Positions 1,816-61,288 of a stretch of DNA of 64,000 bases are shown one piece after another. The translations under genes and the position numbers were made by a program. Source of the stretch: Actinomycetota bacterium (GTDB lineage: Bacteria; Actinomycetota; Coriobacteriia; Anaerosomatales; Anaerosomataceae). A model generated the notes under the pieces. The model saw only the letters and a list, made by a program, of their open reading frames with translations, was not told the origin of the DNA and made no database searches. The stretch covers positions 186,001 through 250,000 of the forward strand of contig SBEH01000002.1 in assembly GCA_009668945.1 (NCBI GenBank). The letters are read 5' to 3'. How positions within the stretch are numbered: position 1 is the first letter of the stretch; each line of letters begins with the position of its first letter.

Positions 1816-2766
1816 TCAGTCCGACACGGCATCGGCCGCCGGAGCGGGCACTTCGATTCCCGATGCGGGTCCTATTCTAGCCACCAGCACGCCGCCTAGC
1901 ACCACCATCGCTCCGCCGATGAGCGTGGCGAGGGTCAGCGGCTCGCCGAGGAAGAGTGCGGCGAAGACGACAGCGCTCACCGGCTCGGCATACATCAGTA
2001 TGCCGGCGTGGTCGGCACGGATGCGACGGAGGCCGGACAGGAACACGAACCCGGTTCCCGCGGTGTGGACAACGCCGAGTGTGATGAGGGCCGCATAGGA
2101 GCCCGCGGAGGTCGGTCCGCCGCCGTGGGCGTACGAGTACAGCACGAGCGGGAGCAGCACAAGAGAGGCGACCCCGTACTCTCCAAGCATGAGTGCGCTA
2201 GAGGAGATGCCGCGGATGATCTTCTTCGAGCGCAGGAGCAGCGCGGCGTATGTGAACGCGGATGCGCCCGCTAGCAGCGCGCCGAGCGCCTGCCGTCCGC
2301 CGCCGAGGGCGAGTCCGTGTTGTGCGAGGATGACGATGATCCCACCGAGCGCGAGCGCCAGCGGCAGGACGATCCGGCGGTCGAACGGATCGCCGGTCAC
2401 CCAGGGAGTGAGCATGGCGACGAAGACCGGTCCGGTGTAGCCGAGGAGCTCGGCCGTGGCGACCTCGGTCAAGTCGAGTGCGGTCAGGAAGAGGAGCCAG
2501 TTCACCATGAGCAGCAGTCCCTGGGAGATCACCTGCCACCATTTGCGACGGCTGAGCGTTGCGAGTTCGCGCCAGCGGCCGCTTGCGAGCATCCAGACGC
2601 CGATGACGACAGTCGCGAACAGCACGCGGTAGAAGACCTTGACCCACGGGTCACCGTCCGCGGCGCGCAGCACGAGCGGGATCGTGCCCCAGACGATCCC
2701 GGTTGCCGCCACGCGCACGAGACCGGATACGCGCTCTCCGCGGGAAGCAGCGATGTCGTGCGGCAT
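1816..2766 (-). CDS. EamA/DMT-superfamily transporter
   Basis: A 316-residue integral membrane protein with about ten hydrophobic segments arranged as two EamA repeats. The first repeat begins with AATGIVWGTIPLVLR near residue 20 and the second with LGALLAGASAFTYAALLL near the middle. Members of this drug/metabolite family export amino acids, nucleosides or other small metabolites across the cytoplasmic membrane. The substrate cannot be read from sequence. It starts 6 bases after hypE stops, which suggests it is read on the same transcript, although no hydrogenase role is known for this family. Confidence 0.8.
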   Translation of the reverse strand: MPHDIAASRGERVSGLVRVAATGIVWGTIPLVLRAADGDPWVKVFYRVLFATVVIGVWMLASGRWRELATLSRRKWWQVISQGLLLMVNWLLFLTALDLTEVATAELLGYTGPVFVAMLTPWVTGDPFDRRIVLPLALALGGIIVILAQHGLALGGGRQALGALLAGASAFTYAALLLRSKKIIRGISSSALMLGEYGVASLVLLPLVLYSYAHGGGPTSAGSYAALITLGVVHTAGTGFVFLSGLRRIRADHAGILMYAEPVSAVVFAALFLGEPLTLATLIGGAMVVLGGVLVARIGPASGIEVPAPAADAVSD

Positions 2767-2772
2767 CGGGCG

Positions 2773-3783
2773 TCAGCAGATCCGGGGAAGCTGCTCGCCG
2801 ACGAGCATGTCCATGATGCGCGTCGCGCCGAAAGACGTCCGGACGTAGACCTTGCCGGCCGGCGATTCGGCAACCGCGCCGACGATCGCGGCATCCGCGC
2901 CGTACGGAGCGGCCTTCATCGCGGCGAGTGCGGCTTCGGCCTTCTCGGCGGGCACGACGGCGACCATCTTGCCCTCATTGGCCACCTGGAAGACGTCGTA
3001 GCCGAGCATCTCACACGCACCACGCACCTGCTCGTGCACGGGAACGCTCGTCTCGTCCACGGTGATCGAGACGCCGGACGCGCCGGCAAGTTCGTTCAGA
3101 GTGCTCGCGAGGCCGCCCCGCGTGGGGTCTCGGAAGCAGCGCACCTCGGGCGCGGCCTCGAGCACCGCGGCGACGAGCTTGTTCAGGGGTGCGGCATCCG
3201 TGCGGATGTCGGTGGAGAACGACAGGCCCTCGCGGGTCGAGATCACCGCGATGCCGTGGTCGCCCAAGGTGCCGGACAGCAGCACGACATCACCCGGCTT
3301 GCAGTGCGAGCCCGAGAGGTCGAGGCCGTCGGGCAGCACGCCCACGCCCGCAGTGTTGATGTAGCAGCCGTCACCGTGCCCGCGCTCCACGACCTTCGTG
3401 TCGCCGGTCACGATACGCACGCCCGCCTCTTCGGCCGCGGCGTGCATCGAGACTATGATGCGCCTGAGCTCCTCGACCGGCATGCCTTCCTCCAGCACGA
3501 AGCCGACGGAGACGTAGAGCGGTGCGGCTCCCGAGGTGGCGACGTCGTTCACTGTGCCGCAGATCGCGAGCCTGCCGATATCACCGCCGGGGAAGAACAA
3601 CGGGTGCACGACGTAGGTGTCGGTGGAGAACGCTAGCCGCGAACCGGGGAAGGGTAGCGCGGCCGCGTCGTCCATGCGCTTGAGGACGTCGTCGCCGAAC
3701 TCGGCCACGAACAGCTCCTCGATGAGCTCCTTCATCATCGTGCCGCCACTGCCATGCGCGAGCAGGATCTTCTCGGCGCGCAT
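2773..3783 (-). CDS. hypE: Hydrogenase maturation factor HypE
   Basis: A 336-residue AIRS-superfamily protein that dehydrates the carbamoyl group transferred by HypF to its own C-terminal cysteine, making the cyanide ligand of the [NiFe] centre. The glycine-rich N-terminus (AHGSGGTMMKELI), the DDAA segment and the ATP-binding AIRS core (TGDTKVVERGHGDGCYINT) are present. The protein ends in PRIC, so the essential C-terminal cysteine is intact. The gene lies 3 bases downstream of hypD in the order hypF-hypC-hypD-hypE. All visible family features are normal. Confidence 0.96.
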   Translation of the reverse strand: MRAEKILLAHGSGGTMMKELIEELFVAEFGDDVLKRMDDAAALPFPGSRLAFSTDTYVVHPLFFPGGDIGRLAICGTVNDVATSGAAPLYVSVGFVLEEGMPVEELRRIIVSMHAAAEEAGVRIVTGDTKVVERGHGDGCYINTAGVGVLPDGLDLSGSHCKPGDVVLLSGTLGDHGIAVISTREGLSFSTDIRTDAAPLNKLVAAVLEAAPEVRCFRDPTRGGLASTLNELAGASGVSITVDETSVPVHEQVRGACEMLGYDVFQVANEGKMVAVVPAEKAEAALAAMKAAPYGADAAIVGAVAESPAGKVYVRTSFGATRIMDMLVGEQLPRIC

Positions 3784-3786
3784 CCC

Positions 3787-4884
3787 CTACGCCTTCCCGT
3801 AGTCGGTGTAACGGTAGTACGCGGCGCAGCTGCCCTCTGAGGACACCATGCACGGGCCGATCGGATGCTCGGGCGTGCAACCGCGGCCGAAGAGCTTACA
3901 GTCGAAGGGCAGCGTGACCCCGCGCAGGACATCGCCGCACTGGCAGCCCTTGATCTCGCGCGGCTCGGGCGGGGTGCAGACAACGCGCTCGCGGGCGTCG
4001 TACTGCGCGAACTTGCTCCGGAGTGCGAGCCCGGTGCCAGGGATGACGCCGATGCCGCGCCACTCGGCGTCGCAAGGCTCGAAGGCCGCCTCGATCGCAG
4101 CCACCGCGGTGGGGTTCCCCTCGGCGTGTACGCCGCGACGGTACGCGATCTCGACCTCGGCGCGGCCCTCGGCGAGCTGACGGCTGAGCATCCACACGCC
4201 CTGCAGGACGTCGACCGGCTCGAAGCCGGTGATGACGCTCGCCACGCCATGCTCGCGCGCGAGGAACTCGTACGGTCCGGCGCCGATGATCGTGGAAACG
4301 TGCCCGGGCAGGATGAAGCCGTTGATCTGCACTTCGGGATCGTTCACCAGTGCGCCGAGCGCGCCGGGCACGGTCTTGTGGAGTGAGAGCGCCGACCAGT
4401 TGGGCAGCTCGCGCCGCGCGGCTTCGCGGATGGTCAGCGCGACGGTGGGCGCGGTGGTCTCGAAACCTACGCCGAGGAAGACCACGTGCTTCTCCGGCTC
4501 GTTCGCGGCGATAGTAAGCGAATCCAGCGGCGAGTAGACCACACGCACGTCGCGCCCGTCTGCCTTCTCGCGGGAGAGCGAGGAGTACGAGCCGGGCACC
4601 TTCATCATGTCGCCGAATGTAGTGAGCACCACACCCGGCTGGCGGGCCATCTCGATGGCGAGGTCGATGTCACGGTTGGCGGTCACACACACCGGGCAGC
4701 CCGGTCCCGAGAGCAGCGTGATCGTGTCTGGCATGAGGTCGCGCAGGCCGTGCTTGGCGATCGCCATAGTGTGCGTGCCGCAGACCTCCATGAGCTTCGC
4801 TGGCACGGTGGCCGTCTCGCGGATGGCATCCATGAGCCGTCCTGCGATCTCGGGGTCGCGGAAGCCGTCGAGTGTCGAGTTCAC
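3787..4884 (-). CDS. hypD: Hydrogenase maturation factor HypD
   Basis: A 365-residue iron-sulfur scaffold protein. With HypC it forms the complex on which the Fe(CN)2CO unit of [NiFe] hydrogenase is assembled. The conserved EVCGTHTMAIAKHG (Cys35) and GPGCPVCVT (Cys63 and Cys66) motifs are present, and the C-terminal region holds the cysteines expected for the [4Fe-4S] cluster (KGCQCGDVL, CKLFGRGCTPEHPIGPC). The start codon overlaps the hypC stop in an ATGA, the usual sign of translational coupling, which fits the obligate HypC-HypD complex. Confidence 0.96.
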   Translation of the reverse strand: MNSTLDGFRDPEIAGRLMDAIRETATVPAKLMEVCGTHTMAIAKHGLRDLMPDTITLLSGPGCPVCVTANRDIDLAIEMARQPGVVLTTFGDMMKVPGSYSSLSREKADGRDVRVVYSPLDSLTIAANEPEKHVVFLGVGFETTAPTVALTIREAARRELPNWSALSLHKTVPGALGALVNDPEVQINGFILPGHVSTIIGAGPYEFLAREHGVASVITGFEPVDVLQGVWMLSRQLAEGRAEVEIAYRRGVHAEGNPTAVAAIEAAFEPCDAEWRGIGVIPGTGLALRSKFAQYDARERVVCTPPEPREIKGCQCGDVLRGVTLPFDCKLFGRGCTPEHPIGPCMVSSEGSCAAYYRYTDYGKA

Positions 4885-18295: not shown

Positions 18296-18324
18296 TTGAC
18301 AACCGAGTAATGGCTCGTTAGGGG
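18296..18324 (+). promoter_or_regulatory. Possible promoter of the surface-protein gene
   Basis: A perfect -35 hexamer TTGACA (18296-18301) is followed after 17 bases by TAGGGG, a weak -10. If used, transcription would begin near 18331, inside the structured leader described next. A start further upstream is equally possible. Confidence 0.4.
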
Positions 18325-18382
18325 AGACGCGGATACGTCGGACATATCCACGGTCACCGGAGTCCGATGAGTAGCCAATGGT

Positions 18383-18420
18383 GAGACCGGCCCAACCAAG
18401 GGACGGTCTCGTTCTTTTCC
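18383..18420 (+). terminator. Intrinsic terminator-like hairpin in the surface-protein leader
   Basis: GAGACCG (18383-18389) pairs perfectly with CGGTCTC (18404-18410) and is followed by GTTCTTTTCC, a U-rich tract. It lies before the start codon, so it would attenuate the downstream gene. Confidence 0.55.
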
Positions 18421-18426
18421 GGACAG

Positions 18427-18461
18427 ACCGGCCCGAGTGCGGGCCGGTTTCGTCGTCTTTC
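18427..18461 (+). terminator. Second hairpin in the surface-protein leader
   Basis: A perfect 8-base stem ACCGGCCC/GGGCCGGT (18427-18434 and 18441-18448) with loop GAGTGC, followed by TTTCGTCGTCTTTC. It lies 28 bases before the AGGAGG ribosome-binding site. It may be a terminator or the alternative partner of the upstream copy of its own 5' arm. Confidence 0.45.
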
Positions 18462-18487
18462 GGGACATGTTGCGAGGAGGATCAGCA

Positions 18488-20377
18488 ATGAAGAACACAC
18501 TGTGGAGAAAAGTGCGGGGGCACGGCGCGGGGACGCGGTTGATGGCCGCGTTGATCGCGATCGTGTTCACCGTGGCCGTCACGGGGCCAGGCCTCGCGAT
18601 GGGCGCGTCGTCGGAGGGTGATCCGGCGCACGAGGAGGCTGTCAGCCTCCAGACGTTTGAAGGCGAAGACGAGGACGAAGACGAGGGCGAGGACGAAGAC
18701 GAAGACGAAGACGAGGGCGAAGACGAGGACGAAGACGAGGGCGAGGACGAAGACGAGGGTGAGGACGAAGACGAGGACGAAGACGAGGGCGAAGATACGT
18801 CGCCCGAGATCGACGTCACCAAGACTGCGGACCCGACGAGCGTGCCCGAAACCGGCGGTGACGTGGAGTTCACCATCACGGTCGAGAATATCGGCACCGA
18901 GGTCGTAACGCTTACGGACGCGGTGGACACCGTCTTCGGCTCCATCTCACTGTCGAACTTCGACAAGACCGTACTAGGCGTCGGCGAGATCGCGACCTAC
19001 ACCTTCACTGAATGGCTGCAGGGCGAGCCGAGTTCGCCTCACCGCAACGTCGTCACCGTGACTGCTCAAGGCAGTGAAGGCGAAGACGAAGGTGAGGACG
19101 AAGACGAGGACGAGGGCGAGGACGAAGACGAGGACGAAGACGAGGACGAAGGCGAAGACGAGGGCGAGGACGAGGGCACCGTCAGCGACTCTGACGATGC
19201 TGTCGTAGCCTTCGAGGACGTCTTGCCCGAAGTGGACGTCATCAAGTCCGTTGATCGGAACTGGATGATCATGCCGGGCGGCACGTTCCACTACTCCGCC
19301 CTGGTGATAAGCGACTCGACAGAGCCTGTCCAGATAATGTCGGTCGTGGACGATGTCTACGGAACCATCTACGAGTGGGCGCAGGGCGATCCAGAGATCT
19401 GGCTTGATCCCGAAGCCTCACACGAGTTCCTCTTCGACATCACCCATGGGGCGCCCGGTGTGTACGCAAACACCGTCACGGCCCTCCTATCCGACGACGA
19501 AGGCAATGCGGAGTCGGACACTGACTCCGAAGAGGTCGTCGTGACCGACCCGAAGATCCAGATAACCAAGACGTCCGACGCTCCCAGTGGCGGTTTCGCA
19601 CAGGGTGTGCCGACGCTCATCACGTATACGTACGTTGTCAAGAACATCGGCGACGTGACTCTGTTCGATGTGCTTGTGACCGATGACAAGCTAGGCGTGA
19701 TCGGCACGCTCCAAGAGCTGGCTGTGGGCGCCGAGCATACGTTCACCAAGAGCACAACACTCACCGACGGGGTCACCAACATAGCCACTGTCACGGCGAT
19801 GGACGAGCACGAGAATCAGGTCAGCGACATCGACGACGCGACCGTAGATGCATTCCTGCGGTTCACGGACATCGATCTTACCGTCACCAAGGATGCCGAT
19901 CGGAGCACCGCTAGGCCGGGTGATTTGGTCACTTACACGCTGACCTACTGGAACACGGGCGACAAGCCAGCGACGAACTTCACCATCGTCGACGACTTCG
20001 ACGAGCGGTACGCCGTGATCGTCAACGCTGCGGGCGGCGTGGTCGCAGGTGGCAAGATCACGTGGACGCTTGCAGGTCCGCTGACAGCGGCGGACGGCAA
20101 GAGGACCATCACCTACACCGCGCGCATCAACACCTCGATGCCTGACGGAACAACGAACGTGGACAACGTCGTTGTGATAACCCATCCCGACGACGCGGAT
20201 CGTTCGAACGACACGTCGGGCAGGCGCGTTGTAGTGAACGTGGGCGAGCCGTTCCTGCCCTTCACCGAGCCGTTCCTGCCCTTCACGGGTGCCGAGTATG
20301 TGCTGTTGCTCGGATTCGCCTTGGCCGCTGCGGCGATCGGACTGCTGCTACGGCTACGGACGAATATCGCAGCATAG
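18488..20377 (+). CDS. LPFTG-anchored surface protein with acidic repeats and DUF11-like domains
   Basis: A 629-residue exported wall protein; start ATG 18488 with GAGGAGG upstream. Signal peptide to about residue 38 (LMAALIAIVFTVAVTGPGLAMGA). Two low-complexity Glu/Asp/Gly stretches (about 58-103 and 198-232) separate four beta-sandwich modules of the DUF11/conserved-repeat type (starting at DVTKTADPTSVPETGG, VDVIKSVDRN, IQITKTSDAPSGG and LTVTKDADRSTARPGD). The C-terminus is a sortase signal: LPFTG (597-601), a hydrophobic helix and RLRTNIAA. A duplicated LPFT precedes it. A sortase gene lies 1.15 kb downstream. The acidic segments could bind Ca2+ or keep the modules apart; no ligand can be named. 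Confidence 0.85.
   Translation: MKNTLWRKVRGHGAGTRLMAALIAIVFTVAVTGPGLAMGASSEGDPAHEEAVSLQTFEGEDEDEDEGEDEDEDEDEGEDEDEDEGEDEDEGEDEDEDEDEGEDTSPEIDVTKTADPTSVPETGGDVEFTITVENIGTEVVTLTDAVDTVFGSISLSNFDKTVLGVGEIATYTFTEWLQGEPSSPHRNVVTVTAQGSEGEDEGEDEDEDEGEDEDEDEDEDEGEDEGEDEGTVSDSDDAVVAFEDVLPEVDVIKSVDRNWMIMPGGTFHYSALVISDSTEPVQIMSVVDDVYGTIYEWAQGDPEIWLDPEASHEFLFDITHGAPGVYANTVTALLSDDEGNAESDTDSEEVVVTDPKIQITKTSDAPSGGFAQGVPTLITYTYVVKNIGDVTLFDVLVTDDKLGVIGTLQELAVGAEHTFTKSTTLTDGVTNIATVTAMDEHENQVSDIDDATVDAFLRFTDIDLTVTKDADRSTARPGDLVTYTLTYWNTGDKPATNFTIVDDFDERYAVIVNAAGGVVAGGKITWTLAGPLTAADGKRTITYTARINTSMPDGTTNVDNVVVITHPDDADRSNDTSGRRVVVNVGEPFLPFTEPFLPFTGAEYVLLLGFALAAAAIGLLLRLRTNIAA
18662..18795 (+). repeat. Low-complexity GAC/GAR codon repeat (first block)
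   Basis: About 134 bases made of irregular tandem copies of GACGAG, GACGAA and GAGGGC codon pairs, encoding a run of Asp and Glu broken by Gly. The unit is always a multiple of three, so slippage would change repeat number without breaking the frame. Confidence 0.85.
19078..19178 (+). repeat. Low-complexity GAC/GAR codon repeat (second block)
   Basis: About 100 bases with the same GACGAG/GACGAA/GAGGGC units as the first block, placed after the first DUF11-like module. The two blocks are close enough in sequence for recombination, which would delete the intervening module in frame. Confidence 0.85.
20245..20286 (+). repeat. Two tandem 21-base copies duplicating the LPFT motif
   Basis: Two identical 21-base units (20245-20265 and 20266-20286) encode EPFLPFT twice, so the protein reads LPFTEPFLPFTG. 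Only the second copy has the Gly needed by sortase. The identity at DNA level implies a recent duplication. Confidence 0.85.
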
Positions 20378-20430
20378 CGTGTGTGCGCTTCGTTCCGACC
20401 GGATCGCACACAGGGGTCGCTAGGCTGCAA

Positions 20431-20471
20431 GGGGCTGCGTCTGCGAGAGCGGACGCAGCCCCCTACTTTTC
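20431..20471 (+). terminator. Intrinsic terminator of the surface-protein gene
   Basis: Perfect 11-base stem GGGGCTGCGTC (20431-20441) with GACGCAGCCCC (20452-20462), ten-base loop, then CTACTTTTCTC. It lies 53 bases after the stop codon. Confidence 0.85.
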
Positions 20472-20550
20472 TCGCCGCCGCTGCGGCGTACCCGAAGGGC
20501 CTCGCGAGTGTTGATGGCCGACCGCCACCCTAGATGCCGGTCCGGAGTAG

Positions 20551-20588
20551 GACGAGACCCCGGGGAGGGAGTGGGCCGGGGTCTCGTC
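20551..20588 (-). terminator. Strong hairpin downstream of the metalloprotease gene
   Basis: A perfect 13-base stem GACGAGACCCCGG (20551-20563) with its complement (20576-20588) and a 12-base loop, 20 bases beyond the stop of the minus-strand metalloprotease gene. No long U-tract follows on either strand, but position and strength suit a transcript end. It separates the convergent surface-protein and metalloprotease genes. Confidence 0.6.
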
Positions 20589-20608
20589 GGGGCGACTGCG
20601 GTGGAGGC

Positions 20609-21199
20609 TTACTTCGGGGGGACGCTCTCTCCCCAGTCGATGACGCCGTTGTCGCGCCAGTCGATGATGTGCCAGATCTCGTGGTTCAGGATCCTCGAGA
20701 GGCTTGCAGTGTGGGTCGGGCTGATCACGATGCGGCCTGACTGGTAGTACGCGATGGCCTGGCTGCCCTTGGCATCTCCGAAGCTCACGGTCGAACCGGC
20801 GAGGATCGGGTACTGCGCTATGAGCCCTGCGAGGATCGACTGCGCTTGCGCGGTCTCGTCTACAGCGGCCACCGGTGCGGCTGCGGCGGTGCTGCCGGTG
20901 CTGCCGGCACTGCCGGTGCTGACCGTGCGGGTGGTGCTCCTCTGGGTGGTGACCGGTGCGATGTAGGTCTCGGTCAGCGCCCTGGGGGTGAAGGTCAGTG
21001 TCGTGGTGCTGGCCGCGAGCGTCCCGGCGGCGGCGGTCGCGGAGAGCTTGCTCCGGAAGACCGGTGCGTCCGTGGCCGCCTGCGCGGTCACAGCGTTCGG
21101 GACCAGGCCCGCAACGAGGGTGACGGTGACAGCGACCAAGATCGTGGTCGCGGCGAAGCGGAGCGTGCGGCTCCTGCTCCAGGTGGTCTTGCTTGCCAT
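20609..21199 (-). CDS. Secreted HExxH metalloprotease-like protein
   Basis: A 196-residue exported protein; the start at ATG 21199 (MASKTTW, with AAGGGG upstream) gives a signal peptide ending near QAATDA (about residue 42). A Thr/Ser/Ala-rich linker (about 55-110) precedes a compact C-terminal domain with LNHEIWHIIDWRDNG: H173, E174 and H177 form a zinc-binding HExxH, and D180, D183, D188 and E191 offer a third ligand. The domain is small (about 85 residues), similar in scale to the catalytic end of small secreted proteases. The leader carries a c-di-GMP-I riboswitch. It converges with the LPFTG surface-protein gene, a plausible substrate. Activity is inferred from the motif. Confidence 0.7.
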   Translation of the reverse strand: MASKTTWSRSRTLRFAATTILVAVTVTLVAGLVPNAVTAQAATDAPVFRSKLSATAAAGTLAASTTTLTFTPRALTETYIAPVTTQRSTTRTVSTGSAGSTGSTAAAAPVAAVDETAQAQSILAGLIAQYPILAGSTVSFGDAKGSQAIAYYQSGRIVISPTHTASLSRILNHEIWHIIDWRDNGVIDWGESVPPK

Positions 21200-21234
21200 T
21201 CGGATCGCCCCTTGTCCGACTCCCTCGCGCACAT

Positions 21235-21274
21235 CGGCCCGACTCATCCCGTCAAGGTGCGGATGGTCGGGCCG
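21235..21274 (-). promoter_or_regulatory. Hairpin between riboswitch and metalloprotease start, possible expression platform
   Basis: A 9-base perfect stem, CGGCCCGAC with GTCGGGCCG (arms 21235-21243 and 21266-21274), lies between the aptamer and the ribosome-binding site on the minus-strand transcript. There is no U-tract. It could act with the flanking GTCCGA/TCGGAC elements to hide or free the ribosome-binding site. Confidence 0.45.
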
Positions 21275-21292
21275 TTACGAGTGGCTCGGACC

Positions 21293-21380
21293 TTCGGCAA
21301 TCCGGCTGTCATGGGAAGCAGAGGCTTCCTTTAGATCCGTGACTTTGCGAGGCTGGCCTTTCGGCCAGCTGTGCCTTTTC
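21293..21380 (-). ncRNA. Cyclic di-GMP-I (GEMM-I) riboswitch
   Basis: The minus-strand transcript upstream of the metalloprotease gene contains the GEMM-I signature in order. GGCACAGC comes first, then a P1b hairpin CTGGCC-GAAA-GGCCAG with the GNRA tetraloop. Next are CTCGCAAAGTCACGG and ATCTAAAGG, a variable hairpin GGAAGCCTCTGCTTCC, and ATGACAGCCGGATTGCCG, whose TGCC closes P1 with the initial GGCA. The match to GCAAAGYC, CUAA and GGNUUGCCG is close. The class binds c-di-GMP and controls expression of the gene it precedes. It lies about 95 bases upstream of the start codon; whether it is an ON or OFF switch is not clear. Confidence 0.88.
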
Positions 21381-21528
21381 GGGAGCGTTCCGATGTTCGC
21401 TTTTCAATCACTTACACTGTCCTTATCGGCACAGGGGCCGGTGACTTTAGACCGTTTGTGCGATTTGTCACACCATTCTTGTGCGGGTCGTCACAGCCCG
21501 AGCAGGGCGGAAGGGTGAGGCCGCGGGC

Positions 21529-22203
21529 ATGAGTCACTCCGCGCGCTGGAAACGGGCCGCCAGCAACGCGATGCTCGGCATCGCGCTCGGCTTGCTGTCC
21601 TACTACACGCTTACGACGCTGCTGACGGGGCTGGCACAACGCGACTTGAGGGGCGAGCACGCGGATGTCGCGGCGTTTGCCGCCGAGAACCCGTTCAAGC
21701 GCCTGGCGCCGCCCCCCGCGGGCGAACCTCTCGACTTCGAGGGCTGGGAGTCCGAGGACCTGCCGTACTGGGCATCGCTCCCCGAAGGCGAAGTCTTCGG
21801 CCGCATCGTGATCGAGAGCATCACGCTCGACGCGCTGATCATCAAAGGAGTACGCCCACAGGATCTCAGGCGCGGACCGGGATGGATCGACTACAGCAAC
21901 GTTCCGGGACCCACGGGCAATTGCGGAATCTCCGGTCATCGCACCACCTACGGTGCGCCATTCAGGCGGATCGACGAGCTGCAGCCGGGTGATACGATCG
22001 ACTTGTACTCGCCGTACCGGATGTACCGGTACGAGGTGGCCCGGACTCTTATCGTCCGGCCCGACCAGGTCGAAGTCGTCGCGTTCACCGAGAGCCCGAC
22101 GCTCACCCTGACGGCGTGTCATCCGCCGTATAGCGCCAGGTCGCGGATCATCGTGCAAGCCGACCTCGTCGAAGTCCGGCGGGTCGAAGACGAAGCGGAG
22201 TAG
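21529..22203 (+). CDS. Class E-like sortase
   Basis: A 224-residue membrane-anchored transpeptidase. One N-terminal helix (LGIALGLLSYYTLTTLLTGL) is followed by a sortase beta-barrel with GISGHRTTYGAPF (catalytic His137) and TLTACHPPYSARSR (catalytic Cys197; Arg204 or Arg206 as third residue). The TLTxCHPxYS form is closest to actinobacterial class E/D enzymes. ATG 21529 was chosen since GGAAGGGTGAGG lies before it; an in-frame GTG at 21481 would add a short basic extension. The LPFTG protein encoded upstream is the obvious substrate. It is followed after 10 bases by the epimerase gene. Confidence 0.9.
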   Translation: MSHSARWKRAASNAMLGIALGLLSYYTLTTLLTGLAQRDLRGEHADVAAFAAENPFKRLAPPPAGEPLDFEGWESEDLPYWASLPEGEVFGRIVIESITLDALIIKGVRPQDLRRGPGWIDYSNVPGPTGNCGISGHRTTYGAPFRRIDELQPGDTIDLYSPYRMYRYEVARTLIVRPDQVEVVAFTESPTLTLTACHPPYSARSRIIVQADLVEVRRVEDEAE

Positions 22204-61191: not shown

Positions 61192-61288
61192 GGAGGCGGA
61201 TGGGGCCTGGTGGCTTCCGCGGTCTTCAAAACCGTAGTGGGACGTGAAGAGCGTCCCGGGTGTGTTCGATTCGCACGCGCCTCCGCCA
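61192..61288 (+). tRNA. selC: tRNA-Sec (anticodon UCA)
   Basis: A 97-base tRNA with the hallmarks of selenocysteine tRNA. It has a 7-pair acceptor (GGAGGCG/CGCCTCC) with an eighth G-G opposition. The D stem is extended to six pairs with a four-base loop (GGGGCC-TGGT-GGCTTC). Anticodon loop CTTCAAA puts UCA at 61226-61228, and the long variable arm is GGGACG-TGAAGAG-CGTCCC. T arm GTGTG-TTCGATT-CGCAC, G discriminator and encoded CCA complete it. It would read the UGA in selD and in the peroxiredoxin gene. Confidence 0.95.

Follow-up and report, generated by a model that had tools for sequence, protein, structure and literature searches.

The subject of this analysis is a 4-kb locus, considered here as a candidate attach/release module controlled by cyclic di-GMP (bis-(3′-5′)-cyclic dimeric guanosine monophosphate, c-di-GMP). 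It lies in a 64,000-nucleotide stretch of contig SBEH01000002.1 (positions 186,001 to 250,000) from a member of Anaerosomatales, an actinomycetotal order of anaerobes that have received little study; the whole of this stretch is referred to as the window, and positions are counted from its first letter. The locus comprises a gene for an exported stalk protein bearing an LPFTG motif, a convergent gene for a secreted HExxH metalloprotease, and a sortase gene. A scan of the window with Rfam models, at the curated cut-offs of 35 bits (RF01051) and 40 bits (RF03169), placed two c-di-GMP riboswitches within these 4 kb, one ahead of the stalk gene and one ahead of the protease gene; in 14 control genomes neither model gave any match above its cut-off. 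The exported LPFTG protein, the convergent protease and the c-di-GMP-I (GEMM-I) leader of the latter had been named by an initial annotation of the same DNA, and all were found again through open reading frames, Pfam and Rfam. The riboswitch ahead of the LPFTG gene, a c-di-GMP-II-GAG element, is absent from that annotation, which had named c-di-GMP-I alone.

The stalk protein is encoded at 18488-20377 (+ strand) and carries the marks of a sortase-anchored surface protein – a signal peptide, an LPXTG-type motif, a hydrophobic membrane helix and a basic tail – together with Pfam domains DUF7507/DUF11. It is the only place in the window's genome where LPFTG is encoded. Complete relatives range from 421 to 2069 amino acids and are built from SdrD_B, SpaA, DUF11 and DUF7507 domains, and they have in common a C-terminal part in which an immunoglobulin (Ig)-like DUF11 domain is preceded by E-x-F-L-P-F-T and followed by E-P-F-L-P-F-T-G. 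The residues P and F ahead of LPFTG are nearly invariant among 38 proteins. In the window's protein the linker motif that leads into the last Ig domain reads FLRFT (19853-19867, +), where the column consensus of the relatives is E-x-FLPFT, while the sorting signal with its conserved EPF prefix is EPFLPFTEPFLPFTG (20246-20290, +), in which EPFLPFT is doubled in tandem. A model of the C-terminal region (mean predicted local distance difference test score, pLDDT, 91) puts neither motif copy within the Ig domain: both fall in linkers modelled with lower confidence, and the second linker joins that domain to the membrane helix. Conservation and model together make the exposed E-x-F-L-P-F-T motif that frames the membrane-proximal Ig domain the most likely candidate for a cleavage site, with the sorting signal a candidate protease recognition site; the sortase may be what recognises the EPF prefix, alone or together with the protease. 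The lack of obvious Pro-Pro sites remarked upon in the initial annotation is borne out, the window's protein containing 0 such pairs.

The convergent gene (20609-21199, − strand) encodes a minimal HExxH metalloprotease with a signal-peptide-like N terminus, and is supported by a 39-sequence family, a fold model and fold matches. Translation probably begins at the ATG of 21199-21197, which AAGGGG precedes, and not at the ATG further upstream (21247). A mere ~85 residues make up the catalytic domain, with HEIWH at 20683-20669. Across the family alignment H81, E82, H85, D88, W97 and E99 are invariant (numbering of A1), which makes E99 a putative third zinc ligand. The model (mean pLDDT 80) consists of a helix, three strands and the active-site helix. 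No family in Pfam or NCBIfam fits the protein, and a profile of the family found no relative among all PDB chain sequences; the earlier description of the protease as unrelated-looking with respect to PPEP-1 is upheld, there being no detectable sequence relation between the two in PDB chains, Pfam or NCBIfam.

Membership of the PPEP/M34 group was considered and set aside: the same sequence resources give it no support, and the fold comparison ranks minigluzincins first. Lethal factor, like PPEP-1 a member of M34, was matched with a Z of 5.5, and no PPEP entry occurs among the matches listed, which is no proof of difference. The best matches among solved structures are the minigluzincins selecase (Z 8.4), abylysin (Z 7.6) and jannalysin, archaeal zinc domains of ~105 residues with a gluzincin fold and 13-20% identity to the window's protease, although Z values of this size are near the level reachable by unrelated folds and are not proof of homology. 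We know of no secretion signal or riboswitch associated with minigluzincins. SprT-domain metalloproteases are matched as well (6mdx/6mdw, Z 8.1-8.2, root-mean-square deviation 3.7-4.9, 16-18% identity), and SprT is the sole metalloprotease family with a weak NCBIfam match to the protein (best E 0.007); SprT-domain proteases, however, are intracellular and act in DNA repair, whereas the window's protease is predicted to be secreted.

The third gene (21481-22203, +) encodes a sortase (Pfam PF04203, 7e-30), and the active-site His, Cys and Arg are readable in its translation, in SGHRTTYG and TACHPPYSARSR. It had been called class E-like. Class E (NF033747) is indeed the best-scoring NCBIfam class, but at 106 bits against a cut-off of 160 the assignment to that class falls short.

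That these parts belong together is indicated by their conservation. Protease relatives occur in 50 of the 298 genomes of the class Coriobacteriia, all within the single order Anaerosomatales; the named genome collection contributes 42 protease loci, nearly all from metagenome-assembled genomes labelled Coriobacteriia, Anaerosomatales or Actinobacteria. Of 55 protease genes 45 are preceded, at 46-455 nt, by a c-di-GMP-I element in the same orientation. A GAG element is convergent to 28 of the 55 at a distance of 1.8-7.3 kb, and within 20 kb of the 55 genes not one GAG was found in a non-convergent orientation. In the modules that were fetched the kept order begins with a large gene (in the window, that for Lon), followed by GAG, the LPFTG protein, the convergent protease with its c-di-GMP-I leader and, divergent from the protease, the sortase followed by an epimerase. 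The co-occurrence put forward in the initial annotation as a check is thus what the order displays: the elements are kept together and their arrangement is conserved, and refutation on grounds of gene order fails.

The coding motif PFLPFTG, for which the reversed pattern as control gave 0, is present in 45 of 69 genomes of the order, and lies convergent within 1.5 kb of 38 of the 55 protease genes. Genomes with the protease have it in 44 of 50 cases, those without in 1 of 19 (Fisher test, 1.3e-10), a p value that overstates the evidence because related genomes are counted as independent. The constant orientation of GAG, and the genome G031, are the stronger points: here the stalk gene lies on a separate contig and has retained its GAG, while the protease has retained its c-di-GMP-I, a case in which functional linkage outlives physical linkage. 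Where the motif stands beside the protease in the absence of a GAG match the surface gene is cut by a contig end, G019 being the sole exception. Duplications are also seen. One genome (G091, L117) has tandem protease genes at 2655-3398 and 3830-4417, each with a c-di-GMP-I; two others (G045 and G077; L098, L099) have tandem pairs of LPFTG genes with one GAG each; and distant second protease copies that have neither a riboswitch nor a PFLPFTG neighbour occur at G028:C25:2063, G051:C12:11543, G071:C11:2146 and G131:C113:3052. We found no earlier report of the module in the open-access literature searched.

A critical issue is what the two leaders do. That of the stalk gene contains the c-di-GMP-II-GAG aptamer at 18316-18401 (+; RF03169, 46.3 bits against the cut-off of 40) and, overlapping it, an intrinsic terminator at 18382-18420 (+; a stem of 12 followed by TTCTTTTCC, -18.5 kcal/mol) whose 5′ arm is the aptamer's 3′ pseudoknot strand. 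This double use of the strand (GAGACCGGCCC), as pseudoknot and as the 5′ arm of a strong hairpin with a T-rich tail, recurs in 29 of the 32 GAG leaders of the module. The pseudoknot, which ligand stabilises, and the terminator are mutually exclusive; binding should therefore allow transcription, and the prediction that c-di-GMP would turn the adhesin on is well supported. A further terminator-like hairpin before the surface gene, at 18425-18450 (+), was rejected as the expression platform: in relatives that role falls to the pseudoknot-overlapping hairpin, and the additional one is an extra element at most.

In the open literature we found no paper reporting a ligand test of the GAG variant, and its binding of c-di-GMP is something we infer. 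Were it to sense another cyclic dinucleotide, the two genes would answer to separate signals, and not oppositely to a shared one. RF03169 represents a variant family, a genome search with the canonical c-di-GMP-II model missed the window's copy, and of the three GAG matches in the window's genome it is the cytochrome-linked one, at C11:377306, that fits the canonical model better (61.9 vs 49.7 bits). Yet Rfam classes RF03169 as a c-di-GMP aptamer, and many GAG copies of the module also match the canonical model, some above its cut-off. Moreover the AGGC core of the class I aptamer, kept in 36 of 37 leaders with the window's among them, has G where variants of the cyclic GMP-AMP (cGAMP) type have A, and goes with c-di-GMP and not with cGAMP. 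On balance a different ligand strikes us as improbable.

The leader of the protease gene is of a different construction. Its c-di-GMP-I aptamer (21293-21385, −; RF01051, 63 bits against the cut-off of 35) is the single copy of that family in the window's genome. Just 5′ of the aptamer core lies a segment, here termed X (GCGAACATCGGAACGCTCC; 21382-21402, −), with two alternative partners: the Shine-Dalgarno (SD) and start region (GGGGCGATCCGA; 21200-21211, −), and the 3′ arm of a downstream hairpin, B (21235-21274, −). Directly 3′ of the aptamer begins a helix, A, formed by 21283-21292 and 21214-21223 (both −; own-specific pairing, z -7.1). Evidence that the partners of X covary came from swap tests, in which a leader's own segments are compared with segments swapped between leaders, a procedure that reduces, and does not remove, the effect of relatedness. 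With one leader per genus (23 genera), X pairs with its own SD at -16.8 kcal/mol against -13.6 when swapped (z -6.0, p 2e-5); the result holds with one leader per family (p 5e-4) and within one family (p 4e-3), and a control segment set against the SD showed no own-specificity (z -0.4). With the 3′ arm of hairpin B as partner, X reaches -27.7 kcal/mol in its own leader and -23.0 when swapped (z -6.5), and this too holds inside a single family (p 5e-4). Pairing of X with the SD can coexist with helix A and the aptamer in one nested structure, whereas pairing with hairpin B runs across helix A and does not occupy the SD; the leader thus has two exclusive states.

Which of these goes with bound ligand determines the sign of the switch. 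When the aptamer was forced, pairing of the window's SD with X rose from 0.09 to 0.80, and the price of forming the aptamer is 3.8 kcal/mol where X holds the SD and 5.6 in the alternative state. Aptamer formation thus favours sequestration of the protease's ribosome-binding site, and we therefore read the class I element as an OFF switch, a direction that we consider likely. A switch of the opposite sign would have protease and stalk protein made together at high c-di-GMP, with the protease maturing, trimming or turning over the stalk during biofilm growth and no release. Such an arrangement draws on the unconstrained minimum-energy fold of the window's leader, in which the SD is paired with the 3′ strand of the aptamer and would be freed on ligand binding, and on the two pairings open to X, between which folding kinetics decide the sign. 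But the pairing of SD and aptamer 3′ strand, examined as a switch in its own right, is not kept across relatives, and the 25 nt after the aptamer have no own-specific SD pairing. With the capture of the SD by X once the aptamer has formed, the lower aptamer cost in the sequestered state, and the fact that the class I riboswitches of Clostridioides difficile are OFF switches (PMC11477304), riboswitches of the same sign appear improbable. Hairpin B was also considered as an intrinsic terminator and discarded, since no more than a few relatives (L108, L112, L114), and not the window, have a T run behind it. Elsewhere in the genomes c-di-GMP-I elements are found away from the protease, before various and mostly exported proteins (L035, L040, L041, L049, L052-L054, L057, L058); some are repeated among genomes, and four of these (L049, L053, L057, L058) look alike.

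Taken together these data lead us to propose that the locus is a c-di-GMP-controlled attach/release module, to which we give a probability of roughly 0.62. At high c-di-GMP the GAG riboswitch would block formation of the terminator and the LPFTG stalk protein would be made and anchored to the wall by the neighbouring sortase, while the class I riboswitch would lock the ribosome-binding site of the protease in a stem and no protease would appear. As c-di-GMP falls, transcription of the adhesin would stop and the protease would be translated and secreted; its cut, most probably in or beside the exposed E-x-F-L-P-F-T motifs, would then set the anchored stalk free. Nine GGDEF domains above cut-off in the window's genome suggest that the organism makes c-di-GMP.

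Several observations weigh against this proposal. Across the relatives forcing the aptamer shifts mean pairing of SD and X only modestly, from 0.67 to 0.73, and in most of them the SD is predicted to pair with X even when the aptamer is not forced. RNAalifold, run on the plain alignment, recovered the aptamer and hairpin B and missed the pairing of X with the SD, because spacer lengths differ. The protease model is unsure at its C-terminal end, where the third zinc ligand probably lies; a few genomes have the protease with no riboswitch or surface gene alongside; and to these must be added the failure of the canonical c-di-GMP-II model to find the window's GAG copy.

The nature of the substrate deserves separate consideration, both proteolytic activity and cleavage of the neighbouring stalk protein being predictions from the genes. 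The wiring may be as described and the target another item of the surface – a different anchored protein, a protein of the surface layer or matrix, or the sortase – with protease and stalk genes neighbours through membership of a shared c-di-GMP surface regulon. The paralogous protease genes of G028, G051, G071 and G131, devoid of riboswitch and stalk neighbour, are in keeping with this, as is the possibility that the sortase alone reads the EPF prefix. Against it, protease and PFLPFTG protein are nearly always retained together, the unlinked case included, LPFTG is found just once in the window's genome, and opposite expression platforms make little sense unless the two proteins oppose one another. 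A different target is thus unlikely in our estimation, and the stalk protein is retained as the proposed substrate. As to the initial annotation, its interpretation as a whole is partly supported: the opposite responses to c-di-GMP that it envisaged agree with predicted platforms that point opposite ways, ON for the adhesin being well supported and OFF for the protease no more than likely.

Other elements encountered in these genomes bear on the wider biology of the group. Canonical c-di-GMP-II elements stand ahead of multihaem (CxxCH-rich) secreted cytochrome-like genes at G000:C11:377306-377389 (L003) in the window's genome and in relatives (L078, L085, L093-L097); c-di-GMP may therefore also control extracellular electron transfer. 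Another GAG element of the window's genome, at G000:C5:29708-29794 (L002; 60.6 bits), is followed by a hairpin and by no clear gene on the same strand, and read-through from it would be antisense to an apparent gene of the cyclic-nucleotide-binding type. The window also contains a selenocysteine tRNA (61192-61284, +; 72.8 bits). The organism probably makes selenoproteins, and calls of open reading frames that end in TGA may therefore be short for some genes.

There exist a number of parallels with a known circuit. In C. difficile a class I OFF riboswitch controls the secreted protease PPEP-1 (CD2830), the anchored adhesins that it cleaves, CD2831 and CD3246, depend on class II ON riboswitches, and a drop in c-di-GMP leads to their shedding (PMC11477304). 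Both systems place a class I riboswitch on a secreted metalloprotease and a class II riboswitch on a wall-anchored adhesin, with predicted senses that agree; in both the protease gene adjoins an adhesin gene (CD2830/CD2831, by gene numbers), and in both the release site is expected close to the wall anchor. The differences are equally plain. The protease described here has no detectable sequence relation to the PPEPs; its neighbour has an LPFTG anchor and no Pro-Pro pair, and the cleavage rule is likely to be another; the adhesin riboswitch is the class II-GAG variant and not the canonical class II; and the class I platform is predicted to sequester a ribosome-binding site, whereas that of C. 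difficile is a terminator. Unlike known c-di-GMP-I riboswitches, the window's leader has a strand 5′ of the aptamer with two covarying partners. The host belongs to the Actinomycetota and not to the Bacillota, and a sortase gene is part of the module. By analogy the module would work like the PPEP-1 circuit with a protease that, by the sequence tests made, is not a PPEP. We see about even odds for the full form of this idea: that a stick-or-release circuit evolved twice, the second time with an undescribed minimal family of secreted metalloproteases in the Coriobacteriia that is under the same riboswitch class as PPEP-1, in the sense opposite to its substrate, and cuts a new motif, E-x-F-L-P-F-T, within the sorting signal, and that the strand 5′ of the class I aptamer pairs alternately with the ribosome-binding site and with a decoy in the downstream hairpin. 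If true, a new protease family could be named with a proposed substrate, there would be a c-di-GMP-II-GAG riboswitch whose target gene is defined and whose expression platform can be read, and a largely uncultivated lineage would gain a concrete and testable lifestyle switch. It would also follow that "adhesin ON, scissors OFF" is a favoured c-di-GMP solution for Gram-positive surfaces, one that extends beyond a single gut pathogen.

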